A DNA stretch of 58,444 nt from Nitrospirales bacterium (GTDB taxonomy: Bacteria; Nitrospirota; Nitrospiria; Nitrospirales; UBA8639), in assembly GCA_012270585.1 (NCBI GenBank), contig JAAXIB010000078.1, forward strand, positions 1 through 58,444, in the 5' to 3' direction. The notes under the pieces are model-generated. The model made no database searches and was not told where the DNA came from. It saw nothing but the letters and a program-made list of their open reading frames with translations. Below, piece by piece: positions 2,387 to 48,042 of this stretch (positions are counted from its first letter, which is position 1; each line of letters starts with the position of its first letter). Made by a program: the position numbers and the translations under genes.

Positions 2387-5300
2387 GCAATCCGACGGCA
2401 TCAGGAGCGGGGCCAGAAGGGATGCAGCCTGCTTCGCAAGCCACCGAAAAATTCGACCGGCTAAAGGCCATTCTGCGTGAGATGTTCCAACTCGACCGGG
2501 GCGACCTGGATTTCGGCCTGTACCGGATCATGAACCTGAAGGCAAAGGAAATCGAAGCCTTCCTCGATAACGACCTCTTGCCGCAGGTACGGACCGCGCT
2601 CGCGGGAAACATCACCGACAAGCTGGCCGGACTAGAAGAAGAACTGGCCGAGGCCCGCGGGCAGGCCAGTGAACTGGGCGTCGATCCGGAAGCCGCGCCG
2701 AAAGTCAAAGAGTTGAAGCAACAGCTTGCCGAAGCCAAGGCGGACGTCGTAGCGGAAACCGACGTCTACAACCATCTCGCCAACTTCTTCGCCCGGTATT
2801 ACGACGAGGGCGACTTCATGTCCCTGCGCCGTTATTCAGGCGGTGGCCAGCCGACCTACCTCATTCCCTACGACGGCGAGGAAGTCAAGCTCCACTGGGC
2901 CAATGCCGACCAGTACTACGTCAAGACAACCGAAAATTACTCGTCCTACGTCTTCACCGTGGGTGCGGGCGCAGAAACGCGGCGAGTGCGGTTCGAGATT
3001 GCCTCCGCGGACAACGAAAAAGACAACGTCAAGGAAGCCAGCGGCAAACAACGCCGGTTCCTGCTTGCCGGTGACAATGCAGATCCCATGAGTTGCAACG
3101 GCGCGGAGTTGGTGGTGCGCTTCGTGCACCGTCCTCTGACCGATCACGAGAAGAAAGAATTTTCCGGTAACGGCGCGAGACAGCAAGATCGGCTCAACGA
3201 GGCAACTGCAAAGCGTATCCTGCAAGCGTTGCAACCGGACTGGCAGACTCTGCTCATTGCACCCGCTCCTACGGAAAAGAACCCCGAGCGCACGATGCTG
3301 GACAAGCATCTAGCCGCCTACACTGCCAAAAACAGCTTCGACTACTTCATTCACAAGGATCTGGGCGGGTTCCTGCGCCGTGAACTGGATTTCTACCTGA
3401 AAAGCGAAGTGCTGGAGTTGGATGACCTGGCGCTGGGGGGGCACCGGGCGCTAGGACGCATGCGAGCTATCCGGCACGTGGCCGACAAGATCATCGATTT
3501 CCTGGCGCAATTGGAAAATTTTCAGAAACAACTCTGGCTGAAAAAGAAATTTATCCTGGAAACGCAGTATTGCGTCACCTTGGACCGCGTGCCGGAATCC
3601 TTGTACACGGAAATCGCCGCCAACGAATCACAGCGCGAAGAATGGGTAAAGCTGTTCGCCATTGACGAAATCAACAACGACCACGCCCCTTTTTCCCTCT
3701 CCCTTTGGGAGAGGGCCAGGGTGAGGGAAGCAAGGGTCCGCCTTATACCAACCCATTGTACCAACCCATTGACCGTGGATTTCCTCAAAGCCAACCCCTA
3801 TCTGGTGCTGGACACCCGGCATTTCGACGCGGATTTCACTGGCCGCCTGCTGGCAGGACTCTCCAACGCCGGACCTCTGGACGAGCAAATGGACGGGCTA
3901 TTGGTACACGGCGAAAATTTCCAGGCGTTGAACCTGTTGCAGGTGCGGTATCGAGGCCGAGTGAACTGTATCTATATTGATCCGCCGTATAATACCGATG
4001 CTTCCGAAATTCTCTATAAAAACGGGTATAAAAGCTCATCTTGGCTTTCGTTTTTAGAAAATAGACTCGAAGCGTCGAAGAAATTTCTTGTCAATAACGG
4101 AATCCTGTGCATCACCATCGACGATTTTGAATTTCATCGTTGCAAATCACTTTTGGAAGGCGTGTTCTCCCATGAAACGTTGCTTGGAGTGGTAGCTATA
4201 AAGAACAACCCCTCCGGACGGTCCACGGGCAAAGGGTTTTCAATTGCCCACGAATATGCCTTGTTTATTGGCAATAACGAAGATGTGACTATTGGAAGGT
4301 TGTCACATTCGGAGCAACAGCTATCGAGGTATAAATTCGACGATGAACAAGGAGCATTCGAGTGGGTCAACTTTAGAAAACACGGTGGGGCGAATGCCAA
4401 TCGGCAAGCGAGGCCCAAACTGTTCTATCCGATTTTTCTCTCAGAGAAGGACGGAGTACGATTTCCACAAGCAACATGGAACAACGCAACGAATCAATGG
4501 GATCTGGACGAAGCTCCGCGTTTGCATGAAACTATTCTGTACCCCGTCGCACCTGATGGTTCGGAGAAAACTTGGAAGTGGGGTCTGGAGACAGCAAAAG
4601 CCGTGCCCGAAGAATTTTGTGTCAAGCGAGATCAAACCAAGCAATTGGGCGTCTATCGCAAATCCAGACTGAATGAACAAGGCACTCTTCCTTTGACTGT
4701 ATGGGACAAAAGCGAGTACTCCTCAACAGAATACGGCACCAACCTTCTCCGGCGGATGTTCGGAGAATCTGAAAAGTTTTCTTTTCCTAAATCGGTTCAC
4801 GCAACCATCGATTCACTTCGTGTTTCAAAAGCATCAGAAAACGCTCACGTGATGGATTTCTTCGGTGGGTCTGGGACTACAGCACACGCGGTAATCGAGT
4901 TGAATCGAGTGGATGATGGGGACCGTCGGTTCATCGTCGTGGAAATGGGAGATTACTTCAACGAAGTGACCGTGCCTAGAGTGTTAAAGGCTGCTTATTC
5001 CAAAGCGTGGAAGGCTGGGAAGCCCATTGATCGAGAGAGCGTCAGTCTATTTACAAAGATCATTCGCCTCGAATCCTACGAAGACACCTTAGACAGTCTG
5101 GAGGTGACGCCACCGGATTCTGCGCAACAGGATTTGCTGGCAGAAAATCCCGCACTGGCTGAGGACTATCGGCTGCGCTACTCGCTGGGGGTTGAGACCG
5201 CGGTAAGCGCCTGCCTGCTTGGCAAGGACTTCACCGATCCCTTCGCCTATACCCTGTCCGTGGTACGCGACGGCATACGCCGAGAAGTGCCGGTGGATCT

Positions 5301-20292: not shown

Positions 20293-21213
20293 CTAAAACG
20301 GCGTCTCGCCGTTACGCAATTTGGCGAGAGCTTGTTTGACGAATTCGGCATCCTGGCTGCCGGGATCCAGGTTCTTGTACGCGGTAGCCCAAAATTCCTC
20401 GGTTTCCCGATACCGCTTCAAATACCATAAGGCCAACCCTTTATACCAATTCACCCCGGGCGCGTTGGGACGATCGACCAACACGAGGTCGAAATGCTTG
20501 AGCGCGGCTTCAAAGACCTTGGGATCGTCGAATTTTCGTTCTTCGATCATGATGACGCCCAGGTTGTAATGCGCTTCATGATTGCGGGGATCCAGTGCCA
20601 GGACCTTCTCGTAGGCGTTCTTCGCGTCATCCGTGCGTTCCAGGACCATGTAGGAGCGACCGGCCATCATCTGGCCTTGCACGTCATCGGGGTTTTCTTT
20701 GAGCCTGGCTTCCAACCGTGCGACCATTTCTCGTGGATCGGGTAGTTGGGCGGCCCTGTCGGTCTGGATGCCCACGAGCCGGTTGATGGTGCGCCATTGC
20801 AGAAAGCTGTAGATTCCGACCGACAACGTGACCACCACCAGGCTGACCGCAATCGCCGATCCCCAGGCACTCCCGGGTTTCCCGGCTTGCTTGGAGGATG
20901 ACGAAGGGCGGCTGGTGACGGCAAGGGTTTCGAGTCGATCCAGGACGCCCAACAGGCGCTGCTCGTCGGTGGCTTTCAAGCGCTCATAATCCTCCTGTTC
21001 CAACCGGCCTTGCGCCAATTCGACATCGAGTTCCTGGATTGACTGGAGAAGGACCTCGCGCTCGACGGAAAGATCGGCCCGTTCCTGATCTTCCTCGGCT
21101 TCCTGACGAATCAACTCGGACGCCGTGGGGTCCTTCCGCCAAAAAGGAGCAGAAATCCCGGCGATCACCCCGATGAGGATCGTGAGACAGACAATGAAGA
21201 AGATGGTCGACAT
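20293..21213 (-). CDS. ccmI: Cytochrome c biogenesis protein CcmI-like (TPR)
   Basis: 306 aa. An N-terminal transmembrane helix (FFIVCLTILIGVIAGISAPF) is followed by an acidic coiled-coil segment (EEDQERADLSVEREVLLQSI, QELDVELAQGRLEQEDYERL) typical of CcmI, a second transmembrane helix (AIAVSLVVVTLSVGIYSFLQ) and a C-terminal TPR domain (DDVQGQMMAGRSYMVLERTD, DPRNHEAHYNLGVIMIEERK). CcmI holds apocytochrome c for the CcmF/H haem ligase. It lies on the same strand as ccmA-H but is separated from ccmH by the divergent hicAB pair. Confidence 0.83.
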   Translation of the reverse strand: MSTIFFIVCLTILIGVIAGISAPFWRKDPTASELIRQEAEEDQERADLSVEREVLLQSIQELDVELAQGRLEQEDYERLKATDEQRLLGVLDRLETLAVTSRPSSSSKQAGKPGSAWGSAIAVSLVVVTLSVGIYSFLQWRTINRLVGIQTDRAAQLPDPREMVARLEARLKENPDDVQGQMMAGRSYMVLERTDDAKNAYEKVLALDPRNHEAHYNLGVIMIEERKFDDPKVFEAALKHFDLVLVDRPNAPGVNWYKGLALWYLKRYRETEEFWATAYKNLDPGSQDAEFVKQALAKLRNGETPF

Positions 21214-21292
21214 GATGTGTTTCCAAGAAACGTGTGGCGCGCGGAACGGCTAATGGGAAGTCATTTTGGTAAAAGGCCTGCCCCTAAACACA

Positions 21293-21320
21293 TTGAATCT
21301 TTTTCCCGATCGTGTATATA
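21293..21320 (+). promoter_or_regulatory. Putative hicAB promoter
   Basis: TTGAAT (21293-21298), 16-bp spacer, TATATA (21315-21320). The predicted start site falls at about 21327, so the ATG at 21328 would give a leaderless or near-leaderless hicA mRNA. Confidence 0.45.
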
Positions 21321-21327
21321 TATGCAC

Positions 21328-21516
21328 ATGGAAACGAAAACTGAGAAAATCAAGCACAGGCTGGAACAGGACGGGTGGTTTTTGACGCGCCATGGTTCCG
21401 GTCATGATATTTACCGGCATCCCCACATCAAGGGCATTATTACCCTGCCCAGACACAAAACGGTATCGCTTGGTGTCGCCCGCTCCATTGCAGGGAAAGC
21501 GGGGTGGCCTGAGTAG
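21328..21516 (+). CDS. hicA: HicA family toxin
   Basis: 62 aa from ATG at 21328 (ATG at 21322 is possible). The sequence KIKHRLEQDGWFLTRHGSGH then DIYRHP...ITLPRHKTVSLGVARSIAGKAG fits the HicA dsRBD-like fold; the His of GSGH corresponds to the catalytic histidine. HicA toxins cleave mRNA. No ribosome site precedes the start. The gene precedes hicB by 26 bp and lies inside the ccm cluster on the opposite strand. Confidence 0.85.
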   Translation: METKTEKIKHRLEQDGWFLTRHGSGHDIYRHPHIKGIITLPRHKTVSLGVARSIAGKAGWPE

Positions 21517-21542
21517 CCACCATGAAAAAGGAGAAGAATCTC

Positions 21543-21926
21543 ATGAGGTATCCCGCAGTGATTGACGGCAAAAAAGGCGCCTATGGCGTGACGTTTCCTG
21601 ACCTGCCCGGTATCGTCGCCATGGGGAAAACTCTTGACGAAGCGCTGGTGAACGCCGAGGAAGCGTTGCGTGATTACGTGGTAGAGACGGAACAGGACGG
21701 GGAGCCGGTCGCGCCGCCTAGTGCGCTCGAACAAGTGAAAATCCCCGACGTGTGTCTGTTGGTATCCATTCCGTTGCTCCGTCTCTCGGGTCGGAGCGTG
21801 CGTGCGAACATGTTGTTGGATGAGGGCGTGGCCGCCTTCATCGCCAGCGAGGCACGACGGCGTGGCATGACCCGGACGACCTACGTGGAATGGATGACGC
21901 GGCGCATTGCGCAAATGGGTGGATAG
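21543..21926 (+). CDS. hicB: HicB family antitoxin
   Basis: 127 aa from ATG at 21543, preceded by AAGGAG; an in-frame ATG at 21522 lacks one. The N-terminal HicB domain (YPAVIDGKKGAYGVTFPDLP, GKTLDEALVNAEEAL) is a degraded RNase H-like fold that covers HicA. The C-terminal ribbon-helix-helix (RSVRANMLLDEGVAAFIASE then RRRGMTRTTYVEWM) would bind the operator. The gene converges with ccmH, with 26 bp between stops. Confidence 0.87.
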   Translation: MRYPAVIDGKKGAYGVTFPDLPGIVAMGKTLDEALVNAEEALRDYVVETEQDGEPVAPPSALEQVKIPDVCLLVSIPLLRLSGRSVRANMLLDEGVAAFIASEARRRGMTRTTYVEWMTRRIAQMGG

Positions 21927-21952: not shown

Positions 21953-22417
21953 TCATGTATTCCGGTGCAATTCCCGTTCGATTCGGCGTCGGGAGGCTTC
22001 ATCGAGGGTGGGGGGCGGCTGAGACGCGGGAGTTTGCGTCACCCATCCTTTGACTTCTCTCCAGAGCAGGACTCCACCGCCGAACAGCAAAAGAAACGGC
22101 GCCAACCAGATCAGCCAATTGATGCCCTGTTTCGGTGGTTCCATCATGATGTAATTGCCGTAGCGGCTGTGAAAGTACGCTCGGATTTCCTCGGCGGATT
22201 GGTCTTGCATCACGCGTTCACGAATGGCTTCCCGCATCTGATGGGCCAAGGGCGCGCCCGATTCCCAAATATTCTCGGTCTGGCAAACGGCGCATCGAAG
22301 CGTTTTGGCAATCTCGCGCACCTTTTGATCAATCTCCGTTTCATCCACGACTTTGGCCAAGCCGTCGATGGGGGAGACGAAACACAGAAGGATCAGAATG
22401 GGGGAAAAACGCAACAT
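21953..22417 (-). CDS. ccmH: Cytochrome c maturation protein CcmH
   Basis: 154 aa. Signal peptide (FSPILILLCFVSPIDGLA), the redox motif LRCAVCQ with Cys42 and Cys45 (family LRCxxCQ), the helical bundle EEIRAYFHSRYGNYIMMEPP, and a C-terminal transmembrane helix (INWLIWLAPFLLLFGGGVLL). CcmH reduces or holds the apocytochrome CXXCH thiols in the haem ligation complex. Its ATG abuts the ccmG stop directly (22417/22418). Confidence 0.92.
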   Translation of the reverse strand: MLRFSPILILLCFVSPIDGLAKVVDETEIDQKVREIAKTLRCAVCQTENIWESGAPLAHQMREAIRERVMQDQSAEEIRAYFHSRYGNYIMMEPPKQGINWLIWLAPFLLLFGGGVLLWREVKGWVTQTPASQPPPTLDEASRRRIERELHRNT

Positions 22418-22993
22418 TCAGGTCGAGGGCTCGTAGGAGCGGACCTGCGTGTCCGCCTTTTGTAATAATGGGGTCAGAACGTTTTGCGTCAGATTGGTAT
22501 ACACGTCATCCACGATCGGGCCGATCCATTTGTGGCGGATAATACCTTGTTTGTCGATGACGAACGTTTCCGGCACTCCGTAGACGCCGAAATTAATGGC
22601 TAACGTGCCTTTGACGTCTTCCATATGCGGGAAACTCGACCCGTAGCGTTGTAAATACGCACGCGCCTTGGGTCTCTCGTCCTGGTAGTTGATCCCCAGC
22701 ATCACAAATTCGGGGTGATCTTTAAACTCATCGTACAGTCTCAGCAGGTTCTCGTGCTCGACCTTACATTCCTGACACCAGGAGGCCCAAAAGTTCACGA
22801 CGATGACTTTGCCTTTGTACCGTTTGGAGGACAACGGGTCGCCGGATTCCACGTCGGGGCCCTCGAACACGGGAGCGCGGGTATTCACCAGGACCGTCGG
22901 GATATGCCGGGGATCGCCCCACAGCCCTTGGTAAAACAACGAAAGCAGGGCCAAGAGCACGACGAGAATGGTGATCTGCGTGGTACGAGTCAT
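22418..22993 (-). CDS. ccmG: CcmG/DsbE thioredoxin-like protein
   Basis: 191 aa. N-terminal membrane anchor (ITILVVLLALLSLFYQGLW), then a thioredoxin fold with WCQEC (Cys73/Cys76) and a cis-Pro segment YGVPETFVIDKQGIIRHKWI characteristic of CcmG. It keeps apocytochrome c or CcmH thiols reduced, drawing electrons from CcdA/DsbD. The last residues (about 180-191, ADTQVRSYEPST) are encoded by a family E palindromic repeat (22432-22460), so the original C terminus has been replaced or extended. Confidence 0.9.
   Translation of the reverse strand: MTRTTQITILVVLLALLSLFYQGLWGDPRHIPTVLVNTRAPVFEGPDVESGDPLSSKRYKGKVIVVNFWASWCQECKVEHENLLRLYDEFKDHPEFVMLGINYQDERPKARAYLQRYGSSFPHMEDVKGTLAINFGVYGVPETFVIDKQGIIRHKWIGPIVDDVYTNLTQNVLTPLLQKADTQVRSYEPST
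22432..22460. repeat. Family E palindromic repeat within the 3' end of ccmG
   Basis: CGTAGGAGCGGACCTGCGTG then TCCGCCTTT; nearly identical to the non-coding copy at 22997-23024 (GTAGGGGCGGACCTGCGTGT...). It encodes KADTQVRSY in CcmG. Confidence 0.7.
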
Positions 22994-23080: not shown

Positions 23081-25030
23081 CTATTCATCCCGTTTCCGTG
23101 GCCGGAAGATGTTGAGCAAGACCCCGAGCCCCATGATGCCGCCGCCGCCCCACACCCAGAGAATCAGGGGATTGATCACGCCCCGGGCGACCGCCACGCC
23201 GTCCGCTGATACGTCCGGCATGGTAAGAAAAATATGCCCCATGTTTTTTGCGTAAATGGCGGATTCGGTCGTCGGGGTCTGCGAAGCATCGTACACGCGC
23301 TTCTGGGGGCGTAGTTTGGTGAGCAGCGTGTCGCCTTCATACAGCTCAAACACGCCTTCCTGCGCGCTCCAGTTTTTGCCCCGTACGCCATGAATCCGTT
23401 CGAGTTTCACCCGATAGTCGTCAATGACGAACTCATCCCCGACGCGTAACGACACCACCTTTTCGGTTTGATACACGGTCGAAGCAATAATGCCGATGAC
23501 CAGGACCAGCACGCCGACGTGAGTCACGAGACCCGCGTAGCGCCGTTGATTGGCGGTAAAAGCCGACAGAAATCCCTTCAGCAGATTGACGGACTCCCTG
23601 CGAGCGTACAGCGAGGAAATTTTGCCGACGTCGATAAAGATGGCGACGCCCGAAAATCCCACGACGAACGCGCCGGTCAAGGCAAAAAGACTGCGGATGC
23701 CCATGGCGAACAACACGACGGTGGAGACCACTCCCACGACGACGGGGATCAGAAAGTTTTTCTTCAAACTGGCGCGGGACGCCTTGCGCCACGGAATGTA
23801 GGGACCGACTCCCATCAGGAACAGAAGCCCGAGTGCGATCGGCATAAACACCGTGTTGTAATACGGCGGTCCCACGGTAACCTTCGCCCCTTTCCAGGTT
23901 TCGATCATTAACGGATACAGGGTGCCGAGAAAGACGGTGGCCGCCGCCACCAGGAAGAATAAATTATTAAAGAGAAACACCGATTCCCGTGAAACCATGG
24001 AATCCATTTCGATCGGACTTTTCAGTTTGTGGGCTCTCAACATCAGGGTGCCAAAGGCAATGCCAATGATCGCGGTCACAAAAATCAGGATGTAGAGCCC
24101 TCGTTCCGGATCGGTGGCAAACGTATGGACCGACGTGAGGACCCCGCTTCGAACCAGAAACGTGCCGATCAGCGAAAGCGAAAACGTGACGATAATGAGG
24201 AACAGATTCCAGACCTTGAACATCTTCCGCTTTTCCTGAACCATCACGGAATGCAGGAAGGCGGTTCCGACCAGCCACGGCATAAACGAGGCATTTTCCA
24301 CCGGGTCCCATCCCCAGTAGCCGCCCCAGCCCAATTCATAATAGGCCCAGTAGCCGCCCAGGAGGATTCCCGTGGTCAGACACACCCAGGCGAAGATCGT
24401 CCACCGTTGGGTGACTTTGATCCATTCCTCGCCCAGCCGACCGGAGAGCAACGCCGCCATGGCAAAGGAAAAGGGAATCGAAAACCCGACGTAGCCCATG
24501 TACAGCATCGGCGGGTGCATGACCATGGCCGGATCCTGGAGCAACGGATTCAAGTCCTTGCCGTCCGGCGGGGCGGGGATCAGCCGGTCGAAGGGGCTCG
24601 AGAGAAAGAGAATCAGGAGAAGGAACCCCAGGATGACCAGGCATTCCATGCCGATGAGGTACGGCATGATGGCCGGCTGGGTTCGCCAATGGAGCCACAC
24701 GGCAATCGTGCTGAACGCAGACAGAATGAAGACCCACAACAGCAGTGAGCCTTCATGGCCGCCCCAGACTGCCGCGATGGTGTAAAACAACGGGAGTTGT
24801 GAATTCGAATTGGTGGCGACGTAGTGAACGGAAAAGTCGCGAGCGAGAAACGAATAGATCAACGCGGCCATGCCCAGGGACAGGAGTACGAAGATGAGCG
24901 TCAAGGCCATGCGCCCGACGCGGACCCAGTCCGCCTCGCGCGTCCGAAGCGCCAGACCGGACGAAACGATACCGAACACGGAGAGCACTAACGCGATGAC
25001 GACGGAAAAATGTCCGATTTCAATTATCAT
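23081..25030 (-). CDS. ccmF: Haem lyase CcmF
   Basis: 649 aa, strongly hydrophobic with about 14-15 predicted transmembrane segments. The periplasmic haem-handling WWD motif is WGGYWGWDPVENASFMPW. GGHEGSLLLWVFILS and HPPMLYMGYVGFSIPFSFA supply conserved histidines. A large periplasmic domain follows near the C terminus (VSLRVGDEFVIDDYRVKLER). CcmF ligates haem from holo-CcmE to apocytochrome c together with CcmH and CcmI. It belongs to the minus-strand ccm operon, 30 bp downstream of ccmE. Confidence 0.95.
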   Translation of the reverse strand: MIIEIGHFSVVIALVLSVFGIVSSGLALRTREADWVRVGRMALTLIFVLLSLGMAALIYSFLARDFSVHYVATNSNSQLPLFYTIAAVWGGHEGSLLLWVFILSAFSTIAVWLHWRTQPAIMPYLIGMECLVILGFLLLILFLSSPFDRLIPAPPDGKDLNPLLQDPAMVMHPPMLYMGYVGFSIPFSFAMAALLSGRLGEEWIKVTQRWTIFAWVCLTTGILLGGYWAYYELGWGGYWGWDPVENASFMPWLVGTAFLHSVMVQEKRKMFKVWNLFLIIVTFSLSLIGTFLVRSGVLTSVHTFATDPERGLYILIFVTAIIGIAFGTLMLRAHKLKSPIEMDSMVSRESVFLFNNLFFLVAAATVFLGTLYPLMIETWKGAKVTVGPPYYNTVFMPIALGLLFLMGVGPYIPWRKASRASLKKNFLIPVVVGVVSTVVLFAMGIRSLFALTGAFVVGFSGVAIFIDVGKISSLYARRESVNLLKGFLSAFTANQRRYAGLVTHVGVLVLVIGIIASTVYQTEKVVSLRVGDEFVIDDYRVKLERIHGVRGKNWSAQEGVFELYEGDTLLTKLRPQKRVYDASQTPTTESAIYAKNMGHIFLTMPDVSADGVAVARGVINPLILWVWGGGGIMGLGVLLNIFRPRKRDE

Positions 25031-25060: not shown

Positions 25061-25516
25061 TTATTCCACCAACGATTTCATGAAATCCTTGCGGGGCAGT
25101 TCCACGCCCGCGCGTTTCAATTCAATGGGCATGTAGTCTTCGGAATGTTTGGCCATGATCAGGTTGGATTCGAATCGATGTTTGCCGGTCCAATACCCTT
25201 CGACCACGGCGCCTTGGCCTTCTTTAAAAAGATCCGGTGGGATGCCTTCAAAGGCCACGGGAATCGTGGCCGCCCCATCGGTCAACTGAAAGGTCAACCC
25301 CAGTCGATCGGGATAGGTTTGCATGCTCCCTTCGACGACCATGCCACCCACGCGCACCTTCTTTTGATAGTAGTCGGGGGAAAAGGCTTTCACTTCGGAG
25401 GGGGTAAAAAAGTATACCACGTTCTCCCCGAAGTTCCCCAGGGCGAGGTAGGCCAAGGCTCCACCCACCAGAAGAATGCTGACCATCATCCCGAGTTTTT
25501 TCTTTGCAACCATCAT
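25061..25516 (-). CDS. ccmE: Haem chaperone CcmE
   Basis: 151 aa; tandem ATGs at the start, with AAAGGA just upstream. One N-terminal transmembrane helix (LGMMVSILLVGGALAYLALG), then the OB-fold (VRVGGMVVEGSMQTYPDRLG, FQLTDGAATIPVAFEGIPPD) ending in AKHSEDYMP. His124 is the covalent haem-binding residue and Tyr128 the expected partner (HxxxY). It receives haem from CcmABCD and passes it to CcmF. Confidence 0.95.
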   Translation of the reverse strand: MMVAKKKLGMMVSILLVGGALAYLALGNFGENVVYFFTPSEVKAFSPDYYQKKVRVGGMVVEGSMQTYPDRLGLTFQLTDGAATIPVAFEGIPPDLFKEGQGAVVEGYWTGKHRFESNLIMAKHSEDYMPIELKRAGVELPRKDFMKSLVE

Positions 25517-25609: not shown

Positions 25610-26092
25610 TCATTCTTCCTCATACAGTTTGGAGGCTTTAATTTCTTCATACAAGAAGTTGACTCGTCGAGTCATGGCAAACAGGAAGAGAGCCAGCGGC
25701 AAGAGGCCCAGGAGATAAGCGCCGGCGATAAATCCATAGTTCGGGACGATCCCGATATCACGGGCCTCGAAGACCTGCGTGGCCGCGTTCCACGTCCCGA
25801 TCAGGATCAGGATTTTCAATTCCCGGAGATTATCTGGTGGTGGTCCTTGATAGTGAACGGGAAGCGTGGCGCTTTTCCCAAGGAGGGTGAACGTGGCTTC
25901 TCCGGCGTCACGAGTTTTGAGCGTTCCGCCTTGAACCATACCCAAAACCCGGATTTCGCCCGTGGGAGCCTCCTTCCTGACCTCTTGGGGGACAAGACTG
26001 GCCAGGTTGTCCCGATAGTGGTGATAGGTGAGCACGATTAACACGGTCGTGACAATGAGCAAGCCGCCCCATCGGATGTACAAATTTGTCAT
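25610..26092 (-). CDS. OB-fold (CcmE-like, no haem histidine) fused to a CcmD-like membrane tail
   Basis: 160 aa from ATG at 26092, overlapping the ccmC stop by 4 nt. Residues 7-24 form a transmembrane helix. Residues 46-112 (EIRVLGMVQGGTLKTRDAGE, ATFTLLGKSATLPVHYQGPP, then RELKILILIGTW) align by eye with the OB-fold of the CcmE encoded just downstream. The haem-binding HxxxY is replaced by ARDIGIVPNYG. The C-terminal 40 residues (YGFIAGAYLLGLLPLALFLF then AMTRRVNFLYEEI) look like CcmD, a single-helix protein normally encoded exactly here between ccmC and ccmE. No separate ccmD was found. I infer a CcmE-paralogue/CcmD fusion that stabilises CcmC-CcmE. Confidence 0.65.
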   Translation of the reverse strand: MTNLYIRWGGLLIVTTVLIVLTYHHYRDNLASLVPQEVRKEAPTGEIRVLGMVQGGTLKTRDAGEATFTLLGKSATLPVHYQGPPPDNLRELKILILIGTWNAATQVFEARDIGIVPNYGFIAGAYLLGLLPLALFLFAMTRRVNFLYEEIKASKLYEEE

Positions 26093-26817
26093 GAATCGGA
26101 TTTCGACAGATGAAACTGACTCAAGAGGCGTCCCTTTTTCGCGTGAAGCAAGCGGTCGAGATAGAGTAACTGCGTGCGGACCATTAACATATACGAGAAG
26201 AGTAAGGACATGCCGACGCTCATAAACAACAGGGGCACCAGGAGGCCTGAAGAAATGCTCACCCCGCGCATGGAAATGGATTGCGGTTGGTGCAGGGTTC
26301 GCCACCATTCCACTGAAAAATGAATGATCGGGAGATCGACGAACCCGACAATGGCCAGGATGGCGCCATAACGGGCTTCCTTTTCGGGATCGTCCACAAA
26401 GGTTCGCAGCATGAGATAGCCGATCAAAATCAACAATAACACCGTAAAGGAGGTCAGACGGGCGTCCCACGTCCACCAGGTGTCCCACGTGGGTTTGCCC
26501 CAAATCATCCCGGTTCCCAGCGCAAGCGCGGTAAAGACGGCGGTGAGGGCGGCCACGGCCTGGCACATGTTGTCTACGATCGGGTCTCGTTTCCACAAGT
26601 ACCAGAGGCTTCCCAGTGCCAGCACGGTATACCCGAGCAGGGACGTATGGGCGAGGGGCACGTGAATATACATGATCCGCACCACTTCGCCCTGATAGTA
26701 ATCCGGGGGCGACCCGATGAGTCCCAGGTAGAGTCCGACCATGAGACACAGGGCGGCTCCGCCCCCAAACCAGCCTTGAAACCGTTGGACTTTTCGGATA
26801 ACCCGATGAATGGTCAT
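26089..26817 (-). CDS. ccmC: Haem transporter/handling protein CcmC
   Basis: 242 aa, six predicted transmembrane helices. The WWD haem motif is WGKPTWDTWWTWDARLTS, flanked by periplasmic-loop histidines in YIHVPLAHTS and in HFSVEWWRTLHQ. CcmC places haem onto CcmE. It sits 6 bp after ccmB and overlaps the next gene by 4 nt. Confidence 0.95.
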   Translation of the reverse strand: MTIHRVIRKVQRFQGWFGGGAALCLMVGLYLGLIGSPPDYYQGEVVRIMYIHVPLAHTSLLGYTVLALGSLWYLWKRDPIVDNMCQAVAALTAVFTALALGTGMIWGKPTWDTWWTWDARLTSFTVLLLILIGYLMLRTFVDDPEKEARYGAILAIVGFVDLPIIHFSVEWWRTLHQPQSISMRGVSISSGLLVPLLFMSVGMSLLFSYMLMVRTQLLYLDRLLHAKKGRLLSQFHLSKSDS

Positions 26818-26823
26818 CGTGGC

Positions 26824-27501
26824 TTATGAATCCATCACCAATTCAAACATCCAAAACGACACGACCGTAAACACCACGTCGTAGACCGCCAAAAGTTCCA
26901 GCCACTGTCCGTACAGGGCCAGCGGATCACCGTTGAGGGCTCCTTTTGTGGCTTCGACCGCGGCGATCATGACGGGGACCACTAGGGGAAGGAGGAGGAT
27001 CGGGAGCATGACTTCACGTGCCCGAATCTGCACCGTCAGAGCCGAAAACAGCGTCCCTATGGCGGAAAGTCCCACGGTTGCCAATAAAAATATTAACAGA
27101 AGGAGCGAAATCTCTTCAACGACTTCCAAATTGAAAAGGATCACAAACATCGGAAATAAAAGGATTTCCACCACGAACATGAAAGCGAAATTCGCCGCGA
27201 CCTTTCCGAGGTAAATCGCTCCCTTGGCCTCCGGCACCATCTGCAAGGCCTCCAGGCAATCATTCTGCAACTCGGTGGAAAACGACTTTCCCAACCCGAT
27301 AATACCGGTAAAGGCAAAGGCGACCCACATGATTCCCGCAATAACTTCCCGCGCGGCCTGTTGGTCCATGGAAAAGCTGAAGCTGAAAATAAGGATGACG
27401 ATGAGAGCAAAAAACACCATGGAGGAGATCGTCTCTCGGCTTCGCAACTCGGTGACGAAATCTTTCCACACGATCCAGCGGATGACGTTAAACGAGGTCA
27501 T
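26824..27501 (-). CDS. ccmB: Haem exporter permease CcmB
   Basis: 225 aa with six predicted transmembrane helices, opening FNVIRWIVWKDFVTELRSRE, the conserved cytoplasmic N-terminal segment of CcmB, and including AFTGIIGLGKSFSTELQNDC. It forms the CcmAB ABC complex that drives release of holo-CcmE from CcmC. Its start overlaps the ccmA stop by 14 bp. Confidence 0.93.
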   Translation of the reverse strand: MTSFNVIRWIVWKDFVTELRSRETISSMVFFALIVILIFSFSFSMDQQAAREVIAGIMWVAFAFTGIIGLGKSFSTELQNDCLEALQMVPEAKGAIYLGKVAANFAFMFVVEILLFPMFVILFNLEVVEEISLLLLIFLLATVGLSAIGTLFSALTVQIRAREVMLPILLLPLVVPVMIAAVEATKGALNGDPLALYGQWLELLAVYDVVFTVVSFWMFELVMDS

Positions 27502-28156
27502 CTGACTTCAGGCCCTCGACGGCAACCTCCTGTAACGTCCCCTGCCGCAGGATGCCGGCCCGGCTGGCGATGGGACGCGTTTTGTCGTGATCGTGCGTGG
27601 AAAGGAGCACGGTACCGTTTTCCGAGAGTCGTTCCCGAACGTACGCTCGCAGGATCTCGGTCCCGGCCGTATCCAGTGCGGTAAAGGGCTCGTCCAACAA
27701 CAAGACGTTGGGTTTCGCCAACATGGCTTTGGCCAGCGCCAACCGTTTCTTCATCCCGGCGGAAAAGTGCCGGATCTTCATGTCGGCAAAGGCGCCGATG
27801 GCAACGCGGTCCAATACCTGCTTCACGTCGCGGTCCGTGGGGCGATGTCCTCGCAGGGCAAGGGCAAACGCCAAATTCTCCTTGGCATTCAATTCATCGT
27901 ACAAATGCGTGCCGTGGGCTAAAAAAACGAGGTTGGCTCGAATGGTATCTTTGTCCTTGAGCCCATGCATGCCGAGAATTTCATAGTATCCCGTACTGGG
28001 CCGTTGAAGCGTGGCCAGTATGTTCAACAACGTGGTTTTGCCTGCGCCGTTGGGTCCGAACAGGGCGAAACATTCACCCTCCGCGATGCTGAGGTTTACA
28101 TCGTGTAATACCTGGAAATGCCCGTAGGATTTGCCGATAGCGTGACAAGCAATCAT
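27488..28156 (-). CDS. ccmA: Haem exporter ATPase CcmA
   Basis: 222 aa ABC ATPase: Walker A GPNGAGKTT (residues 34-42), Q/H-loop region near VFLAHGTHLYDELNAKENL, signature FSAGMKKRL, Walker B LLLDEPFTALD and switch histidine STHDHD. First gene of the minus-strand ccm operon A-B-C-(OB/D)-E-F-G-H. The 275-bp region upstream (28157-28431) shows no repeat and no other gene. Confidence 0.94.
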   Translation of the reverse strand: MIACHAIGKSYGHFQVLHDVNLSIAEGECFALFGPNGAGKTTLLNILATLQRPSTGYYEILGMHGLKDKDTIRANLVFLAHGTHLYDELNAKENLAFALALRGHRPTDRDVKQVLDRVAIGAFADMKIRHFSAGMKKRLALAKAMLAKPNVLLLDEPFTALDTAGTEILRAYVRERLSENGTVLLSTHDHDKTRPIASRAGILRQGTLQEVAVEGLKSDDLV

Positions 28157-28431
28157 GGAAAGGGAGTACGCTGTTGATGCCGGTTACGGGAAAATCAGGG
28201 AAAGGATGTACCCAGTCGGCCGGTTAAACTGACCGTCGTATGCCCCAGTTGTCTCAACGAAACACTATACTGGACGGTCACGCACGTGTCCACTTACAAG
28301 ATGTTCCCCAAGCCCACAAGCAGGCCACGTTTGCCCTTGCCGGTTGACGGTCTCAGGAATTCCTGAATAAGATGAAATCCGGTCGGGCAGACGTGCTTGT
28401 GAATGAAACGGCAGTGTATAATAGTTGGGGA

Positions 28432-29031
28432 ATGGTGACGGCATGGATCAATAAAGGGTACGAAAGGAAAGCGCTTTCCTGGGAATTGGTTCGCTGCCTG
28501 GGGACGTTGGTTGTCCTGTCAGGGGTAGCTTGTGATTCAGGATATTCGGATCAAAAAGAATTCTCGGGAAACGCCGTCGCCGTTCGGCAGGCCCCACCGG
28601 CCATGGGGTCGCCGGCTCCTGATTTTCAACTCATTGACTTGCAGGGGAACCGGCAGGCGCTTCCGGACTACCACGGCAAGGTGGTGCTCCTGAACTTTTG
28701 GGCGACGTGGTGTGGCCCGTGCCGCGTCGAAATGCCGAGCATGGAAATCCTGTATCAGGATCTCAAGGAGGAAGACTTTGCGGTCCTTGCGATCTCTTCC
28801 GATCCGCAAGGGAGTATCGTGACTCGACCGTTTGTCGCATCCCGAGGGCTGACCTTTCCGATCTTACATGATTCGGATTACCGGGTGAGCGGGAGTTATG
28901 GCGTCCGAACGCTTCCCATGAGCTTTTTAATCGATCGAAACGGCACGTTGACCCATCGGGTGTTCGGGGCGCGGGACTGGAACAGTCTGGCGGCTCGTGA
29001 ACTGATTCACGGCCTTCTGCGGGAGTCGTAA
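28432..29031 (+). CDS. TlpA/ResA-like thioredoxin, membrane- or lipid-anchored
   Basis: 199 aa from ATG at 28432; an in-frame ATG at 28372 would read through a good -10 box (TATAAT, 28417-28422), so the shorter form is preferred and may be leaderless. An N-terminal hydrophobic segment (CLGTLVVLSGVAC, Cys34) may be a signal anchor or weak lipobox. The thioredoxin fold has WCGPC (Cys94/Cys97) and a cis-Pro at TLPMSFLIDRNG. It ends 4 bp before ccdA, which would supply its electrons. Likely role: thiol reduction for cytochrome c maturation or periplasmic repair, alongside CcmG. Confidence 0.82.
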   Translation: MVTAWINKGYERKALSWELVRCLGTLVVLSGVACDSGYSDQKEFSGNAVAVRQAPPAMGSPAPDFQLIDLQGNRQALPDYHGKVVLLNFWATWCGPCRVEMPSMEILYQDLKEEDFAVLAISSDPQGSIVTRPFVASRGLTFPILHDSDYRVSGSYGVRTLPMSFLIDRNGTLTHRVFGARDWNSLAARELIHGLLRES

Positions 29032-29035
29032 CGCG

Positions 29036-29785
29036 ATGATCGACGCCATGAGTCACGTCTCCCTGTTTGCAGCCTTCAGTGCGGGCTTCCTCTCCTTCAT
29101 CTCGCCCTGCGTGTTACCGTTGGTTCCTTCCTACGTCTCCTATATTACCGGGCTCTCCTTGGAGCAGTTGGTGGATGTGTCGGAGCGGCAGCGTTTTCGG
29201 AAAGCCATCATCCTGAATTCGCTCTTGTTCGTGACGGGATTTTCTTCCGTGTTCATTGCGTTTGGCGCCTCCGCCAGTTTCGTGGGGCAGGTGCTGTATG
29301 AATATCAGGACCTCGTTCGAAAAATCGGAGCCGTATTGATTATTGTCTTCGGGCTCTACCTGTTGGGTTTGATAAAGTGGAGCGTGGTGATGACCGAGCG
29401 CCGACTCTTCTCGTTCGGCAGTCGGCCGGTGGGGTACGTCGGATCGTTTCTGATCGGGACGGCCTTCGCCGCCGCGTGGACGCCCTGTGTCGGGCCTATT
29501 CTGGGCGCGATCCTGGCCTATGCCAGTACCACGGAATCCATGCAGTTGGGCATTCTGCTCCTGGCGTCCTATTCCTTGGGGTTGGGGCTGCCGTTTCTTT
29601 TAACCGCCTTCAGCGTCGATCGCTTCCTCAACTATTTTCAAAAGGCCCGGCTCTACCTCCACGGAGTTTCCCTGGCCAGTGGCGTCTGCCTGGTCCTGGT
29701 CGGCGTAATGATTTACGTCGATTCCCTGGCACGCCTGACCAGTCTTCTCGAACGCAACGGGATTGGCTGGTATATCGGACAGTAG
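29036..29785 (+). CDS. ccdA: Cytochrome c biogenesis/thiol transporter CcdA
   Basis: 249 aa, six predicted transmembrane helices. The two redox cysteines lie in the conserved motifs SPCVLPLVPSY (Cys25) and TPCVGPILGAIL (Cys151). CcdA carries electrons from cytoplasmic thioredoxin to periplasmic TlpA/CcmG. The start could be ATG 29036 or ATG 29048. Confidence 0.93.
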   Translation: MIDAMSHVSLFAAFSAGFLSFISPCVLPLVPSYVSYITGLSLEQLVDVSERQRFRKAIILNSLLFVTGFSSVFIAFGASASFVGQVLYEYQDLVRKIGAVLIIVFGLYLLGLIKWSVVMTERRLFSFGSRPVGYVGSFLIGTAFAAAWTPCVGPILGAILAYASTTESMQLGILLLASYSLGLGLPFLLTAFSVDRFLNYFQKARLYLHGVSLASGVCLVLVGVMIYVDSLARLTSLLERNGIGWYIGQ

Positions 29786-48003: not shown

Positions 48004-48042
48004 GCCCCCTCACCCCAGCCCTCTCCCACGATGGGGAGAGGG
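48004..48042. repeat. Palindromic repeat, family A (reverse)
   Basis: CCCCCTCACCCCAGCCCTCT then CCCACGATGGGGAGAGGGG. It is followed by GGGAATGACCAATTCGGGGT and the tail GGCTATTTTCATGCCAA shared with family B loci at 6694 and 42714. Families A and B thus travel together here and at 54931-55000. Confidence 0.75.

Follow-up and report, generated by a model that had tools for sequence, protein, structure and literature searches.

A haem-less CcmE-like domain joined to a CcmD-like helix, a probable replacement for CcmD in Nitrospirota cytochrome c maturation operons

Introduction

Which gene supplies CcmD in a cytochrome c maturation (ccm) operon that carries, between ccmC and ccmE, not a small stand-alone single-helix protein but one of 160 residues with two predicted helices? 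The question is raised by a 58,444-nucleotide stretch of DNA from a Nitrospirales bacterium (contig JAAXIB010000078.1), which as a whole we call the window. Escherichia coli cannot mature cytochrome c without CcmD, whose job is still called enigmatic (PMC6204919). CcmD sits on CcmC with its N-terminus outside and Tyr17 near the WWD loop; the proposals for its role are that it aids the release of holo-CcmE or resets the WWD domain (PMC9616876, PMC10457321). A preliminary description of the gene had suggested that it may be a non-haem CcmE paralogue that has absorbed the role of CcmD. We found no earlier description of a CcmE-like/CcmD fusion in the open-access papers searched. What we describe is a new variant within the known System I, not a new system.

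Results

The System I operon runs on the minus strand in the order ccmA, ccmB, ccmC, fusion gene, ccmE, ccmF, ccmG-like, ccmH and ccmI-like (Table 1). The coordinates first given for the fusion gene, 25610-26092, are correct, the strand being minus, and the residues quoted from it, FIAGAYLLGLL...TRRVNFLYEEI, are found at 121-151 of the protein. Its placement between ccmC and ccmE likewise holds: the ccmC stop codon overlaps the fusion ATG by 4 nt, in the window as in most homologous loci, and an intact ccmE comes next, as it does at all loci where ccmE is visible.

Table 1. Genes of the ccm operon and parts of the fusion protein, in window coordinates
Feature	Position	Strand	Remarks
CcmI-like TPR protein	20293..21213	-	
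CcmH	21953..22417	-	
CcmG-like thioredoxin	22418..22993	-	
CcmF/NrfE-type haem lyase	23081..25030	-	
Canonical CcmE haem chaperone	25061..25516	-	HxxxY = AKHSEDY
CcmE-like/CcmD fusion gene, 160 aa	25610..26092	-	Stop codon 25610-25612
Putative CcmD part (residues 116-160): junction NYGF, transmembrane helix 2, basic cytoplasmic tail	25613..25747	-	Y119 corresponds to CcmD Tyr17
Predicted periplasmic OB domain (residues 31-115), CcmE-derived, without haem histidine	25748..26002	-	
D87-E91, equivalents of E. coli CcmE D101, R104, E105	25820..25834	-	Alignment; E. coli data PMC6204919
N-terminal helix	26003..26089	-	AlphaFold2 model; 8ce8_E alignment starts at model residue 1; hhalign match to CcmE N-termini is weak
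CcmC	26089..26817	-	Equivalents of D47, Q50, R55, H60 retained (PDYYQGEVVRIMYIH)
CcmB	26824..27501	-	
CcmA	27488..28156	-	

The suggestion of a CcmE-like OB fold was borne out by domain and structure comparisons alike. The Pfam CcmE model (PF03100) matched residues 35-113 of the fusion with an E-value of 6.8e-12 (46 bits, cut-off 24.6) and was matched by 27/27 fusion homologues, and the fusion stayed below the NCBIfam CcmE equivalog level (best model: 41.6 bits, cut-off 152). An AlphaFold2 model built from the 27 homologues (mean pLDDT 82.9, pTM 0.59) predicts a helix at residues 2-30, an OB barrel at 46-114 and a second helix at 119-153. Its best PDB match in Foldseek was the CcmE chain of CcmABCDE (8ce8_E, E 1.8e-5), and VIA-align gave Z-scores of 11.2, 10.9 and 10.5 to the CcmE entries 1sr3, 1j6q and 8ce8, with other OB folds scoring similarly in the same list. 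The first helix showed a weak similarity to CcmE N-termini (hhalign, E 0.001 over 39 columns).

That both haem-binding residues, His and Tyr, had been lost proved half right. No conserved His or Cys was present in the OB domain across the 27 aligned fusion homologues, so the histidine of the HxxxY motif is gone; neither HxxxY nor CxxxY was found in the fusion, the adjoining CcmE has HxxxY, and H and Y are retained in all 33 CcmE proteins that we aligned. A tyrosine, by contrast, is still there: Y119, at the junction of OB domain and second helix, is conserved in 26/27 homologues, close to the position expected for CcmE Tyr134 and aligning best with the conserved Tyr17 of CcmD. The joint alignment also suggested an H130-to-Y substitution, which we discarded as an artefact of aligning a region that has fewer residues in the fusion. 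Like CcmE/CycJ (PF03100; E. coli CcmE, 1sr3, 8ce8 chain E), the fusion has an N-terminal helix, a predicted periplasmic OB domain and equivalents of the CcmC-contact residues D101, R104 and E105, whereas it lacks the haem histidine and a free C-terminal tail, adds a second helix and a cytoplasmic tail after the OB domain, and was adjoined by a separately encoded canonical CcmE in all cases examined. With the domain match, the missing histidine and a tree branch separate from CcmE (see below), the label of a non-haem CcmE paralogue is sound.

The resemblance of the C-terminal helix to CcmD was likewise supported once profiles were compared with profiles. In hhalign, the fusion tails aligned in register from the first residues with a stand-alone Nitrospirota CcmD family, f15 (E 7.8e-8, 39 columns), and with CcmD_alt-like proteins (E 2.7e-5, 32 columns). 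As negative controls, reversed profiles and the first helices of both CcmE and the fusion gave E-values of 0.04-0.65 over 1-19 columns, mostly few. As the CcmD match is in full register and the reversed and unrelated-helix controls fail, the resemblance is not due to chance. That f15 is a genuine CcmD is shown by a score over the cut-off of TIGR04391 (CcmD_alt) and by its place directly between ccmC and ccmE; it reads SNYEFIAAAY... where the fusion has PNYGFIAGAY..., the NY motif being common to both. Compared with Nitrospiraceae CcmD alone or f10 CcmD alone, the tails gave weak matches (E 0.011 and 0.006). With the f15 profile as query against 21 whole fusion genomes, the fusion tail ranked first in 7 and was listed in 12; the window's genome is among the 7 (E 0.096, 25637-25741). 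No fusion member scored above the curated cut-off of any CcmD model (best 22.4 of 25.95 bits), and the window's own tail lies below all of these cut-offs. One divergent tail reached 1.6e-4 against TIGR03141 and another member 8.1e-4, and at an unrelated site in one genome (G081) CcmD was likewise matched below threshold, at 1.2e-4. Scans with single C-terminal tails mostly returned no match, so profiles were required.

Like CcmD (TIGR03141/PF04995) and CcmD_alt (TIGR04391/PF20077), the fusion is encoded right after ccmC, shares profile similarity with them and has a predicted outside-to-inside helix with a periplasmic Tyr and a basic cytoplasmic side. It differs in that CcmD is a small stand-alone protein, while in the fusion 115 residues of helix and OB domain replace the short periplasmic N-terminus. 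Taken from sequence profiles and the structure model, a haem-less CcmE-derived part joined to a CcmD part is almost certainly what this protein is composed of.

Across genomes, the fusion and stand-alone CcmD were never found together, in line with the suggestion that the role of CcmD had been absorbed. In a survey of the class (269 genomes), the fusion was present in 78 and CcmD over cut-off in 88, with an overlap of 0 genomes where ~25 would be expected under independence; this exclusion tracks family lines and hence does not represent many independent events. A sample of the phylum Nitrospirota (198 genomes) contained 57 genomes with a real ccmC (E up to 2e-37), among which 21 had the fusion, 27 CcmD over cut-off and 3 the f15 CcmD. 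Five of the 6 remaining carry a CcmD_alt-like gene of 46-50 residues straight after ccmC, and in the neighbourhood of the sixth (L109) no CcmD gene was assigned. All matches in a phylum-wide scan with Pfam CcmD_alt (PF20077) were below cut-off, tblastn against plasmids returned ordinary CcmE only and no fusion, and a search of the window's genome, operon included, gave no ccmD over cut-off. The fusion occupies the ccmD position, and the fusion genomes have no other recognised ccmD. On these comparative grounds, it very probably replaces CcmD.

Nearly all of the 78 genomes, which span about a dozen families, carry the fusion at full length and in its usual place. The family is ancient and has a single origin: in a midpoint-rooted tree with long branches, the fusion OB domains grouped together (support 100/100), and every CcmE from these genomes fell outside the group. 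The gene is under purifying selection: within the genus, dN/dS was 0.23 overall, 0.64 in helix 1, 0.18 in the OB domain and 0.14 in both helix 2 and the tail, compared to 0.075 for CcmE. In one genome placed in Nitrospiraceae (G227, L114), the fusion lies in an intact operon while its relatives carry stand-alone ccmD, which reflects either a binning error or a transfer. In another genome (G208), a fusion that at first looked split proved to be a 196-aa protein with an in-frame insertion in an OB-domain loop (L115 1643-2233).

To describe the CcmC-facing side of the OB domain, we number residues by sequences that we take to be those of E. coli CcmC and CcmE. At the positions in question, these sequences have the residues given in the study in which CcmE R73, D101 and E105 contact CcmC D47, Q50 and R55, and in which the pair CcmE R104/CcmC Q49 matters for holo-CcmE release (PMC6204919). 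The fusion has D/E at position 101, R at 104 and D/E at 105, each in 27/27 homologues, and the equivalent of R73 is not conserved (R/K in 9/27). On the other side, CcmC D47, Q50 and R55 are retained in all 31 fusion loci. The acidic docking residues are also invariant in CcmE, and the conserved D/R/E of the fusion may be kept for the OB fold and not for docking. In the E. coli cryo-EM structure, CcmE contacts CcmB alone and leaves CcmC free (PMC10457321), which makes even the location of docking a matter of debate. CcmC position 49, which in E. coli covaries with CcmE R104 (PMC6204919), is Tyr in 31/31 fusion loci and Q, R, K, T or F in ccmD-bearing relatives, a contrast that is confounded by phylogeny.

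Discussion

We favor the reading, at a probability of roughly 60%, that the fusion protein serves as CcmD in a variant of the haem-export complex, CcmAB-C-D, where the OB domain has a role in docking and release. The first helix would enter the membrane from the cytoplasm and place the OB domain in the periplasm, and the second would return from outside to inside, the topology of CcmD, against CcmC. As the tether between OB domain and helix 2 measures only ~4 residues, the OB domain would have to be on the periplasmic rim of CcmC, and as the fusion keeps the CcmE residues that touch CcmC, its probable place of docking is the CcmE site or a spot next to it, with no haem being taken up. The haem-less domain might then serve as a built-in stand-in for CcmE that occupies or organizes the docking site between cycles and, once holo-CcmE is charged, rebinds and helps to push it off, a mechanical version of the part that CcmD is known to play in holo-CcmE release. 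This docking-and-release mechanism falls somewhat short of an even chance in our judgment. Its full form, namely a permanent haem-less CcmE copy within the export complex that is hard-wired to CcmD, competes for CcmC and drives release of the charged chaperone, is conceivable yet doubtful; if true, it would amount to an intramolecular release factor derived from a dead paralogue of the client.

The main rival to docking is an inert anchoring role, where the protein is CcmD plus a scaffold that keeps the CcmD helix in place or makes CcmC more rigid and takes no part in CcmE turnover. CcmD function alone could explain the replacement pattern, and within the genus it is helix 2 and the tail that are most constrained. 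An inert domain would not need R104 or the acidic docking residues, however, and the retention of R104 and both acidic positions in all homologues, over a deep divergence in which positions of the haem site and of glycines did change, counts against this explanation, which we regard as unlikely. A haem relay, with the OB domain taking haem non-covalently from CcmC, for example via Tyr119, and handing it to CcmE, has in its favor that Y119 is nearly invariant at the Tyr17 position of CcmD, and that the axial ligand of CcmE is likewise a Tyr. Moreover, a Cys variant at Tyr17 of E. coli CcmD crosslinked haem (PMC12077264). Against it, the OB domain offers no conserved His or Cys to share the iron, the tyrosine is accounted for by CcmD homology alone (the NY motif being found in f15 CcmD as well), and NMR did not locate a haem site on the core of CcmE (PMC6204919); we consider a relay improbable. 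Still far less credible is a second CcmE dedicated to a special set of cytochromes, with the CcmD-like tail a coincidental membrane anchor: the protein is a genuine CcmE paralogue by domain and tree, but the haem-attachment residue is absent in every member, the tail matches CcmD in register where reversed and other helices fail, and ccmD is lacking only in genomes with the fusion. The lost haem-attachment residue could also speak for a decaying, functionless duplicate, a notion that is practically untenable for a gene that is complete and in position in nearly all 78 genomes, under purifying selection and with invariant residues.

The CcmD subunit with a docking OB domain that we prefer has partial parallels. 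The archaeal CcmABCEF system of Methanosarcina (PMC9084895) likewise has no stand-alone ccmD; there CcmD is absent and the fusion was not seen, whereas here CcmD would persist inside the fusion. E. coli ccmH, a fused CcmH-CcmI, provides a precedent for the joining of neighboring System I subunits (PMC10457321), although it belongs to another module and both of its parts are functional, while one part of the present fusion is a paralogue without its active residue. CcmD welded to the client chaperone's OB domain, with the haem ligand gone and the docking residues kept, hints at the neighbor of CcmD, and the fusion offers a ready construct, a natural way to probe the part of CcmD in cytochrome c making. 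It also poses an annotation risk in a large group of Nitrospirota, where ccmD can seem to be missing and the fusion can be mistaken for CcmE.

Genomic surroundings of the operon

A HicA/HicB-type toxin-antitoxin pair on the plus strand (21217-21513 and 21522-21923; Pfam HicA_toxin 7.6e-11, HicB_lk_antitox 1.4e-18) separates ccmI-like from ccmH in the opposite orientation to the ccm genes. Divergent from ccmA, a second thioredoxin-like gene and a CcdA/DsbD_TM gene occupy 28372-29785 on the plus strand. Dispersed REP-like palindromes (CCCTCTCCCnnnnnGGGAGAGGGCTGGGGTGAGGG) occur at positions 3692, 12202, 14691, 25548, 40199 and 44121 of the window, with related copies at 48005, 52604 and 54933, and one palindrome lies inside the fusion-ccmE spacer. 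In a close relative (L035 5573-7281), this spacer contains an IS481-like transposase and a DUF559 (nuclease-like) gene, flanked by the same REP-like palindromes as in the window.
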